Shown one piece after another: positions 1 to 64,000 of a stretch of DNA of 64,000 bases. Each line of letters starts with the position of its first letter. Within the stretch, counting starts at the first letter, position 1. Origin of the DNA: Streptosporangiales bacterium. GTDB taxonomy: Bacteria; Actinomycetota; Actinomycetes; Streptosporangiales; WHST01. Made by a program: the position numbers and the translations under genes. A model generated the notes under the pieces. The model saw only the letters and a list, made by a program, of their open reading frames with translations, was not told where the DNA came from and searched no databases. The stretch covers positions 1 to 64,000 of the forward strand of contig WHST01000022.1 in assembly GCA_009379955.1 (NCBI GenBank), given 5' to 3'.

Positions 1-146
1 GCATATCCGGCGGCAACAAGAACTGCTGGTCACGATCAACAGGTCGGAAATCCCTCGCCATCACAACATCCTGGCAACACAGTCCCGACACCACCAAGAT
101 CATCAAGCCGAGTCGCCCGAAAACGCAACAGCCTCCCTGACGCGGT

Positions 147-60122: not shown

Positions 60123-60812
60123 TCAGCTCGTGAGCAGGCGAACGACCTCGTCGACGTCGGACAGGTCGGGCAGCACGGCGTCGGCGCCGAGCGCCGACAG
60201 CTCGTCGTAGCTCGACCTGCCCGTCGCGACGAGCAGGCAGCGCGCGCCGGAGGCCGCCGCGCACTCGTAGTCGAACTCGGTGTCGCCGACGATCCAGGTC
60301 TGCTCGGGCTCCCACCGCCGCCCGTACGCGCGCTCGGCACGTTCGAGCACCAGCGGCAGCAGCTTCGGCCGGTCGGCGTGGTCGCTGCCGAACGCGCCGA
60401 TCTCGACGTCGAGGAACTCCTCCAGCCCGAACGCCGCGAGCTTGACCACGGCGTTCGGCCTGATGTTCCCCGTCAGCACCGTCTGCACCACGCCGTCGGC
60501 GCGCAGCCGGGTGAGCGTCTCGCGCACGCCGGGCATCAGGTGCCCGTCGGCGGCGATCAGGTGGGCGCGCTCGGCGAGTACCTGCTCGAGATGGACGAGC
60601 ACGTCGGCGACGTGCGCGTCGTGCGGTGTCGGCACGCCGCCGGAGACGAGGATCTCCCCCGCGATCCGCGGGTCGGTCTTGCCGCCGAACCAGACGTCGT
60701 ACGTCAGCGCCTCACCCACCGCACGAGTGACCGCGGTCTGCATGATGTCCCTGCCGGCGGTGCCGGAGGACAGGAGCGTCTGGTCGACGTCCCACGCGAC
60801 GAGCGGCGTCAC
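60123..60812 (-). CDS. HAD-superfamily phosphatase-like protein
   Basis: This 229-residue protein has motif [13 protein letters not shown] (8-14 region), helical cap, motif II VLTGN, a lysine in [10 protein letters not shown] and motif [18 protein letters not shown]. The first motif is DxDxT-like (DVDQT), so it is probably a phosphatase or phosphoglycolate-phosphatase type. The GTG at 60812 overlaps the mnmA stop (GTGA), suggesting co-translation. The substrate is unknown. Confidence 0.86.
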
Positions 60813-61897
60813 GCACCCCTCCGCTCGGTGCGGTCGATCGTCGCGGACCCGACGACGCGCTCGTCGTCGGCGTAGAGGACGACCGCCTGCCCCGGCGCGA
60901 CGCCCTCTGCGGGACGTCGCAGCGACACGACGAGCTCATCGCCGACGGCCTCGGCCACTGCCGGGTGGACGCTGCCGTGCGCGCGCAGCTGGGCATGGCA
61001 CTCGATCGGGCCGCCGGGCACCGGACCGGCCCACCGCGGGCGGATGCCGGTGACCGAGTCGACGAGCAGCGACTCGCGCGGACCGACCGTGACGGTGCGG
61101 TCGACCGGACTCACGTCGAGCACGTACCGCGGGCGGCCGTCGGGTGCCGGCCGGCCGAGCCGCAGCCCGCGCCGCTGGCCGACGGTGTAGGCGTACGCGC
61201 CGTCGTGCTCGCCGAGGACGCGACCCTCCTCGTCGACGACCGTCCCCGGCGAGGGGCCGAGCCGGTCGGCGAGCCACCCCGCGGTGTCGCCGCTCGGGAT
61301 GAAGCAGATGTCGTGGCTGTCGGGCTTGTCGGCGACGGCGAGGCCGCGGCGGTCGGCCTCGGCGCGGACGTCGGTCTTGCGGGAGTCACCGAGCGGGAAG
61401 AGGGAGTGCGCGAGCTGGTCTGCGGTCAGCACGCCGAGCACGTACGACTGGTCCTTCTCGTCGTCGACGGCGCGGTAGAGCCGGCCGTCGACGAGCCGCG
61501 CGTAGTGCCCGGTGCAGACGGCGTCGAACCCGAGTGCGCGCGCCTTGTCGAGGACGCTGGTGAACTTGACGCGCTCGTTGCAGCGAAGGCAGGGGTTCGG
61601 TGTGCGGCCGGCGGCGTACTCGTCGACGAAGTCCTCGACGACGGCGGCGTGGAAGCGTTCCGCCAGGTCCCAGACGTAGAACGGGATGCCCACGACGTCG
61701 GCGGCGCGCCGCGCGTCGCGTGCGTCCTCGCGGGTGCAGCACCCACGCGCACCCGAGCGGTACGACTGCGGGTTGCGCGACAGCGCGAGGTGCACGCCGG
61801 TCACGTCGTGGCCGGCGTCGGCGGCGCGGGCGGCGGCCACGGCGGAGTCGACCCCGCCGGACATCGCCGCGAGCACGCGCAACGGTCGGTCGGTCAT
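60809..61897 (-). CDS. mnmA: tRNA 2-thiouridylase
   Basis: MnmA puts sulfur on U34 of tRNA-Glu, -Gln and -Lys, using ATP and sulfur passed from a cysteine desulfurase. The 362 residues have the PP-loop [13 protein letters not shown] (11-23), the catalytic cysteine in [14 protein letters not shown] (Cys102) and the second cysteine in [11 protein letters not shown] (near 195). GQRRGLRLG and a C-terminal beta domain follow. The start is supported by TAGCCT 7 nt before the ATG. The cysteine desulfurase gene lies just upstream on the same strand, a natural partner. Confidence 0.96.
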
Positions 61898-61923: not shown

Positions 61924-63126
61924 TCACCCGTGGACAGCGGGAGGCTGGTCGGCCGCGGAGGTGAGGCCGGCGCGGCGGGCACGCTCGACCGCGGGGCCGA
62001 TCGCGTCGACGAGCGCGTCGACGTCGGCGGTGATCGAGGTGTGACCGAGCGAGAACCGCAGCGAGCCGCGGGCACGCTCCTCGTCGGCGCCCATGGCCAG
62101 CAGCACGTGGGACGGCTCGGCGACGCCGGCCGAGCAGGCCGAGCCGGTGGAGCATGCGACGTCCTGCGCGTCGAGGAGGAGCAGGAGCGAGTCACCCTCG
62201 CAGCCGGGGAAGGAGAAGTGCGCGTTGCCCGGCAGGCGTCCGTGCGGATCGGGGTCGCCGTTGAGCACGGCGTCGGGTACGGCCGCGCTGACGCGCGTGA
62301 CGAGGTCGTCACGCAGGACCGCGAGCCGCTCGGCCTCGCTGCTCCGGTCGCCGACCGACGCCGTGACCGCCGTGGCGAACCCGACGTACGCGGCCGCGTC
62401 GAGGGTGCCCGAGCGGACGTCGCGCTCCTGCCCGCCGCCGTGCAGGACGGGCGTGACCTCGGCCTCCCTGCGGAGCACGAGAGCCCCCGCGCCGACGGGA
62501 CCGCCGAGCTTGTGGCCGGTGACCGTCAGCGCGTCGAGGCCGCTGGCGGCGAAGTCGACGGGAAGGTGCGCCACCGCCTGCACGGCGTCGGAGTGCACCG
62601 GGATGTCGTACGACTGCGCCACCTCGACGATCCGCGAGATCGGCTGGATCGTGCCGACCTCGTTGTTGGCCCACAGCACCGAGACCAGTGCCACCGTGTC
62701 GGGGTCGCGCGCCACGGACTCCGCGAGTGCGTCGACGCGGACGCGACCGAGCCCGTCGAGCGGCAGCAGCTCGACCTCGGCGCCCTGTTCGCGTGCGAGC
62801 CACACCGCGGAGTCGAGCACGGCGTGGTGCTCGCCGGCGCCGACGAGGACGCGGCGCCGCCGGTCGTCCCCGGCGCGACGCGACCAGTAGAGGCCCTTGA
62901 CGGCGAGGTTGTCGGCCTCGGTGCCACCGGAGGTGAACACCACCTCGCCCGGTCGTGCGCCGATCGCGCCGGCCAGCTGCTCGCGCGCCTCCTCGACCAC
63001 CCGGCGCGCGGCACGTCCCGGCGTGTGCAGGGACGAGGGGTTGCCGAGCCGGCCGAGCTCCGCGCTCATCGCCGAGATCGCCGCGGGCAGCATCGGCGTG
63101 GTCGCCGCGTGGTCCAGGTACGCCAT
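61924..63126 (-). CDS. Cysteine desulfurase (NifS/IscS family)
   Basis: This PLP enzyme removes sulfur from cysteine for tRNA thiolation and possibly iron-sulfur clusters. The 400 residues include YLDHAATTP, the PLP lysine Lys206 in [24 protein letters not shown] and the catalytic cysteine in [11 protein letters not shown] (Cys331; Cys325 nearby). RFSLGHTSI near the end is typical. The downstream gene is mnmA, its likely sulfur acceptor. The ATG at 63126 has TAGGCT 8 nt upstream, which abuts a foldback repeat. Confidence 0.95.
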
Positions 63127-63134
63127 CGCCGTTC

Positions 63135-63140
63135 AGCCTA
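63135..63140 (-). promoter_or_regulatory. -10 box of the cysteine desulfurase gene at the edge of a foldback repeat
   Basis: TAGGCT on the minus strand is followed by 8 nt and the ATG at 63126. The first base of the box is the last base of the foldback element (63140), so the upstream -35 region would lie inside the element. Confidence 0.5.
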
Positions 63141-63303
63141 GTGCCCTGCGTTCGACGTTGTTCGCCCGTGCCGGCGGTCAGGTGGGTGCATCGCAAGGCG
63201 GAGGAGGTCCCTCGTACTGGGCGTACTTGGGATTCTCCGACAACGCAGCGAGGTGCCCGCCTGGGCGTCGGCACGGGTGAACGTACGTCGGACGCTGGGC
63301 ACT
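63140..63303. repeat. 164-bp foldback (MITE-like) element
   Basis: The ends AGTGCCC and GGGCACT begin imperfect terminal inverted repeats of about 45 bp, matching at most positions (shared blocks CGACGT, GTTC, CCCGTGCCG, CAGG). The centre of about 65 bp has partial inner symmetry. I see no target-site duplication or coding sequence. It lies between the DUF418 gene (3' end) and the cysteine desulfurase promoter. Confidence 0.75.
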
Positions 63304-63343
63304 GACCAGTCGGCAGGGCTGAACGGCGACGGTGGTCGACGGG

Positions 63344-64000
63344 TCAGTGCGCGGGCGCGCCGGTCGCCTCCCGGTCGGTCGGCGGCGCGGTGATCCGCCG
63401 CCAGGCCGGACGCTCCGCGTTGGTCACGGCCCGCAGCGCCCATTCGACCGGGCCGTACTGGAACCGTGCCATCCAGAGCCGGCTGACGACCAGCTGCCCC
63501 AGCCAGATCCCAAGAGCGATCGCGAAGACACCGAGCGGGGCGACGTGGCCGACCAGGCCGAGACCGACGCCGGTGAAGATCAGCAGGCACGCGAGCGACT
63601 GGCCGAGGTAGTTCGACAGCGCCATCCGGCCGGCCGGGGCGAGGGCCGCGGCGAACCTGCGTCCTGGCGCGGTCCTGAAGAACAGCAGCAGGCTCGCGAC
63701 GTACGCGGCGGTGAGCGCGGGCGAGGTCAGCATGCCGATCGCCGTGGCGGTCGTGTCGGTGCCGATGCCGTCCATGCCGGCCCACTGGTACGCGCCGGCG
63801 AGGCCGATCGGGTAGCCGACCAGGCAGATCACCTTGAGCGCCCTGGTGTGTGCGTCGACCTCGGCCAGCAGCCGCCGCTTGCCCGCGGCGAGGCCCACCA
63901 GGAAGGCGGCCAGTGCCATCGAGAGCTGGTAGGCGACCAGGGTCAGGCCCAGGAACGGCAGGTCGGCGATGTGCTGCACGATCACGGAGCCGTAGCCACC
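63344..64000 (-). CDS. DUF418-family membrane protein (partial)
   Basis: This is the C-terminal part of a polytopic membrane protein; the frame runs open past the window edge (GGYGS before the first internal GTG at 63985). About six hydrophobic segments are seen, with LVGYPIGLAGAYQ and the C-terminal signature MALSNYLGQSLACLLIF plus WMARFQYGPVEWALRAVT, typical of DUF418. The function is unknown. The stop is followed by the 164-bp foldback element. Confidence 0.85.
   Translation of the reverse strand, partial: GGYGSVIVQHIADLPFLGLTLVAYQLSMALAAFLVGLAAGKRRLLAEVDAHTRALKVICLVGYPIGLAGAYQWAGMDGIGTDTTATAIGMLTSPALTAAYVASLLLFFRTAPGRRFAAALAPAGRMALSNYLGQSLACLLIFTGVGLGLVGHVAPLGVFAIALGIWLGQLVVSRLWMARFQYGPVEWALRAVTNAERPAWRRITAPPTDREATGAPAH

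Follow-up and report, generated by a model that had tools for sequence, protein, structure and literature searches.

A strong inverted repeat lies directly upstream of a cysteine desulfurase gene in a Streptosporangiales genome, against the -10 box of that gene, which raises the question of what the repeat is, how it came to lie there and what it does to transcription of the desulfurase. The window analysed here is a stretch of 64,000 nucleotides (contig WHST01000022.1, positions 1 to 64,000 of the forward strand). Its minus strand reads DUF418, then desulfurase, then mnmA, with the inverted repeat between DUF418 and desulfurase; mnmA, which the initial annotation had taken to depend on this sulfur supply, is the next gene. 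The features are as follows.

60809-61897, minus strand: mnmA-type tRNA 2-thiouridylase gene, 26 nt after the desulfurase gene (Pfam tRNA_Me_trans domains)
61924-63126, minus strand: cysteine desulfurase gene (NifS/IscS-like, class V aminotransferase; Pfam PF00266, NCBIfam TIGR03402 below cut-off)
63123-63138: inner arm of an outer inverted repeat, made up of desulfurase leader and start codon; a related leader also occurs in empty-site relatives
63135-63140, minus strand: -10-like box TAGGCT of the desulfurase promoter, leaderless type (TANNNT in relatives)
63139-63140: desulfurase-side copy of the duplicated TA target, inside CTAG 63138-63141 (from copy comparison and the same-genus empty site ggtggCTAGgct)
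63141-63302: fold-back element (MITE), 162 bp without target duplication (from copies, border comparison and fold z-scores)
63211-63229, minus strand: conserved hairpin tip CAAGTACGCCCAGTACGAG, with compensatory changes beside it
63303-63304: second target copy, decayed by its sequence (TG for TA, CTGA for CTAG); other copies have CTAG here
63317-63332: outer arm, an inverted copy of the desulfurase leader (15/16 nt)
63344-64000, minus strand: upstream gene DUF418 (YeiB-like, Pfam PF04235), running past the window end

Structure and borders of the element

Positions 63141-63302 are a near-complete fold-back element, a MITE. It had been drawn as 164 bp at 63140-63303; the inverted repeat is real, and its borders, set from comparison with other copies, are now placed one base further in on either side. 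At 162 bp the element is below the limit of approximately 600 bp for a MITE; it contains no transposase gene and has terminal inverted repeats (TIR) and a TA-in-CTAG duplication, with copies elsewhere and empty sites in relatives. The terminal pairing of the window copy joins 14 of 16 nt, and its 35-nt arms (63160-63194 and 63248-63282) are 77% complementary. The predicted RNA fold of the minus strand reaches -132.6 kcal/mol (z -9.8) and the DNA fold of the element by itself -51 kcal/mol (z -6.5), each equalled by 0 of 200 shuffles.

Outside the element lies a second inverted repeat of 16 nt (63123-63138 with 63317-63332, 94%), which was absent from the initial annotation. As measured (15 nt), this flank pair is the longest of 115, a count that may hold filter-passing spurious TIR pairs and one element through more than one locus, and it exceeds all 1492 null pairs.

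Copies in the window genome and empty sites in relatives

The window's own assembly (G000, 6.6 Mb in 225 contigs) holds seven further copies with 82-87% identity over 145-167 nt. A second set in G000 matches the core only and has other ends (TAGGGCGTGTCTCC..., TAGGAGGCTGGTGTGAAAC...), although it is laid out alike and mostly bordered by CTAG. Allowing up to 3 mismatches, the tip pattern occurs 31 times in G000 vs 12 times for the reversed control, and 17 of these 31 have at most 2 mismatches. Solo ends of 14-15 nt (CTAGTGTCCTGCGTC, exact or with one mismatch) are found at L082-L087, L093 and L098 with no nearby partner end, some of them at gene ends or directly before a start. A separate repetition concerns the promoter itself: the desulfurase -10 box, leader and start (CACTAGGCTGAACGGCGATGGC) recur as an exact 22-nt copy at the head of a histidine kinase gene (L099, contig C91:11893-11914 of G000), the next best matches in G000 having 3 mismatches.

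All 31 genomes (own and 30 relatives) have the desulfurase, and 30 loci were fetched, one being the window's own. The element is present in this one locus of the 30 and absent from 29 of 29 others. In the same-genus genomes G001 and G002 the site is empty and its CTAG/CTAA target present (promoter letters ggtggCTAGgctgtgcggtgATG in G001, gcCTAAgctggtggcgATG in G002), and in both the desulfurase lies approximately 30 nt after etfA. In 22 of the 30 loci a TANNNT box precedes the aligned start by 13-18 nt; in the remaining eight the start codon was not located, the alignment starting at residue 2. Since the G001 and G002 promoters carry the site without the element, the target TA is the start of the ancestral -10 box.

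That the repeat might be a non-autonomous mobile element had been suggested from the sequence, and dispersed copies, a TA/CTAG target, empty sites and a Streptomyces IS630 element with matching ends bear this out; the repeat is neither conserved at this locus in all relatives nor without copies elsewhere. The contrary reading, that the repeat is immobile and ancestral to the desulfurase operon, serving it as a regulatory palindrome or structured RNA, would suit a strong fold at the operon head, but the empty loci of all 29 relatives, the dispersion of copies and the Rfam result (5 hits at E<=5 for the window element, every one below gathering score) render it extremely improbable. A structured RNA or riboswitch was rejected on these sub-threshold hits and the empty sites.

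Insertion into the desulfurase promoter

Leaderless promoters with a TANNNT box occur in actinobacteria. The desulfurase ATG (63126-63124, minus strand) lies 8 nt past the box TAGGCT (63140-63135), the first two bases of which are the duplicated TA rather than element. The adjacency of element and box described initially therefore holds with refined coordinates.

We consider it likely that an IS630-associated MITE entered the TA of the desulfurase -10 box, and that with the box restored and the upstream sequence replaced, leaderless transcription continues, uncoupled from the genes upstream. The insertion would have been made by a transposase acting in trans, at the TA with which the box begins. 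Since this class of element duplicates TA, the duplication would have restored TAGGCT 8 nt before the ATG and left the box intact, all sequence upstream of it, any -35 included, being replaced by the element. With the box intact and its upstream sequence gone, leaderless desulfurase-mnmA transcription probably still depends on this box. Transcripts reading through from the gene upstream are predicted to form a very stable hairpin in which the outer 16-nt repeat pairs the start codon, so that they should be poorly translated. The net outcome would be a desulfurase uncoupled from upstream genes and reliant on the -10 box of its own promoter. In the window genome, etfA and the element are set apart by a segment of approximately 2.4 kb that carries DUF418 and a gene for an M23 peptidase, and because this segment also separates etfA from the desulfurase, the uncoupling may owe as much to it as to the element. 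Against this reading stands the far target copy, which has decayed to CTGA. The promoter effect of the insertion we infer from the regenerated box and the replaced upstream sequence. The inverted leader copy beyond the element perhaps arose by template switching at the hairpin.

The MITE, although real, could be a neutral passenger, the pre-existing -10 box sufficing and desulfurase expression being little changed, to which we give a little short of even probability. The box is present in relatives and regenerated by TA, and the element shows no -35 consensus; yet everything upstream of the box has been replaced, a strong hairpin abuts it, and the family rarely occupies such sites, hinting at a cost elsewhere.

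The initial annotation held that any -35 must come from the element, and that the element may shape expression. By position the former is correct; however, the search gave no -35-like hexamer, and the -10 box predates the insertion. On this reading desulfurase expression would be raised or regulated through a promoter or activator site supplied by the element, which is well placed for a -35 contribution; Correia elements do carry promoters (PMC10969869). Here, a consensus scan gave 0 sigma-70-like -35/-10 pairs in 63000-63500, and with that no outward promoter hexamers of the Correia kind on the element, a weak test in that the consensus is not actinobacterial. The same scan gave no terminator at the desulfurase locus. 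Moreover, -10-like contexts are rarer beside elements of the family (17 of 159 flanks vs 65 of 321 background CTAG directions, p 0.01, with possible spurious pairs and repeatedly sampled elements in the count). With the family thus depleted at promoter-like sites, donation is rather unlikely. The same numbers contradict a general family preference for -10 boxes; promoter use is therefore not a general habit of the family and the desulfurase case is unusual. As reconstructed, the locus would illustrate cleanly, in a natural setting, how a transposon can land in a -10 box and, by duplicating its target, leave that box whole again.

IS630-family transposases and other candidate movers

Transposons of the IS630 family target TA. 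The end matches include one inverted pair, in G070, with a spacing of approximately 1.7 kb; two single ends in G064 were also inspected. IS630-family transposase frames are present at two of these three sites, NF033545 scoring over cut-off in both: L314 has DDE_3 and HTH domains and is apparently frameshifted near its N terminus, while L313 has HTH domains and is disrupted. The 1.7-kb element of G070 ends in CTAGTGCCGCACCACGCAACGTTCGCCCCG, as compared with CTAGTGCCGCGGCAGGCAACGTTCGCCCCG for the MITE, and the right end of L313 is close to the MITE end over approximately 30 nt. This match concerns the Streptomyces TGCC class, and extends to the window copy only by the resemblance of its ends to that class. 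The window genome has no IS630-like sequence beyond one degenerate match, with internal stops and without these ends. Hence IS630 is linked directly to the Streptomyces ends and, judged by sequence resemblance, probably to the window copy. An autonomous IS630 partner was not found in the window genome, where, as the assembly is in 225 contigs, a collapsed autonomous repeat could be missing.

Other movers were considered. IS5/IS427-type transposases (PF13340) have no representative in the window genome, and the IS701 type (PF13546) has one relic beside MITE copy L013, the ends of which do not match; this relic is a decayed transposase gene adjoining the copy (L252, contig C30 of G000). G000 also contains a high-copy CTAG-specific IS with TIR TAGTACTTTGTTAYG, 41 exact ends of which lie at contig ends (L253-L282 and others), where it breaks the assembly. 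Very short fold-back derivatives (approximately 60 nt, one approximately 20 nt) with both ends and no tip are seen at L269, L282 and L265. It is quite unlikely, in our estimate, that another CTAG-specific transposase such as that of the TAGTACTTTGTTAYG IS or an IS701 type moves the MITEs in place of IS630: 30 of 30 fetched ends of this IS in the window genome are at CTAG, some against MITE ends, and the IS701 relic adjoins a copy, but the ends of both are unlike those of the MITE, whereas the Streptomyces IS630 element matches over approximately 30 nt.

A superfamily with a common hairpin tip

The window element belongs to an actinobacterial, IS630-associated MITE superfamily. Ten of 61 genomes (own and 60 relatives) match the element at E <= 1e-5, and the exact tip pattern occurs in at least 118 stretches of named actinobacterial genomes; the matches listed are chiefly from Streptomyces and also include Kitasatospora and Actinokineospora. 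Members measure approximately 155-175 bp, are flanked by CTAG and have the hairpin tip CAAGTACGYCCAGTACGAG in common; their terminal repeats are diverse, and the dozens of end sequences fall broadly into two classes, one TGCC... and the other GGCCTGTC...-like. One element, L150, is a clean hybrid with one TGCC-type and one GGGG-type end. L167 was rejected as an element with chimeric ends, being a truncated element that adjoins a second one, and the core matches of L185 and L229 are chance hits in coding-type sequence.

By an automatic rule, a TIR pair was found at 119 of 130 tip sites (own and named loci), including a few that look spurious (e.g. L165, L190, L219, L233, L240) and were kept in the count; CTAG is present on both sides in 67 of the 119. 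Because these elements were collected by tip, the constancy of the tip among them is by construction. Elements found by their ends alone number 17 distinct ones: the tip is present in 14, exactly in 10 of these and with no more than 2 mismatches in the others, and is lacking in 3. In 16 representatives with less than 85% identity, 61% of cells in the helix beside the tip pair vs 34-44% when the helix is slid, and 41 cells are changed on both sides vs 9-24 when slid, both counts being open to spurious pairs that passed the filter and to one element entering through several loci. A nested palindrome of approximately 36 nt (ctcccccaagctcttcgagcagggggt...) was observed within the element arms of L149, L155, L222, L299 and others, and occupies the place of the missing tip in three elements found by ends.

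In each of the 13 genomes reached through loci, ends of a single class number 12 to 113 (reversed control 0). This is a large superfamily in antibiotic-producing actinobacteria, in some genomes of which one end class by itself accounts for tens of copies. Thirty plasmid records match, all from Streptomyces, and no phage record matched the element family. Three viral_contigs matches to tip or core showed no fold-back ends around them on inspection, and presence in viruses was rejected.

The superfamily raises the question why one tip is kept, with compensatory changes beside it, while transposon ends differ widely. A tentative answer, possible but not one we would bet on, is that CAAGTACGYCCAGTACGAG serves a function as a module, a host or transposon factor recognising it as cruciform DNA or as RNA; modular elements would keep tip and helix and exchange or diverge their ends, so that many TA/CTAG transposases could carry them.

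Comparison with known systems

The MITE superfamily of Streptomyces and relatives is apparently undescribed so far. The letters of the tip were not found in the literature searched, and none of the titles and abstract starts listed for work on Streptomyces or actinobacterial MITEs, IS701 and CTAG, IS630 MITEs and Streptomyces palindromes describes it. A term search of the main text of a 2024 review of prokaryotic MITEs returned none of 'actino', 'streptomyces', 'IS630' or 'CTAG'.

REPs depend on Y1 transposases for their movement and are not known to have TIR or target duplication. The REP/RAYT system resembles the present elements in its short fold-back repeats and many copies, but the latter have complementary ends and TA/CTAG on both sides. 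With IS630 (NF033545) they share the TA target, and one Streptomyces element has ends matching the MITE; unlike IS630, the MITE encodes no transposase, and no matching autonomous copy was found in the window genome.

Correia/NEMIS elements of Neisseria are likewise 100-160 bp long with TIR and a TA target, adjoin genes and in some cases carry promoters (PMC2229807, PMC10969869); promoter motifs were not found in the window element, and the host phylum differs. The repeat unit of pneumococcus (RUP), for which IS630-Spn1 is the proposed mobiliser, is similar in being non-coding (approximately 107 bp) with a TA target, IS630-like TIR, dispersed intergenic copies and a stable fold (PMC2229807, PMC3049150). 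Compared with RUP, the present family is GC-rich, CTAG-preferring and actinobacterial, folds over its whole length, and has one hairpin tip common to dozens of end sequences.
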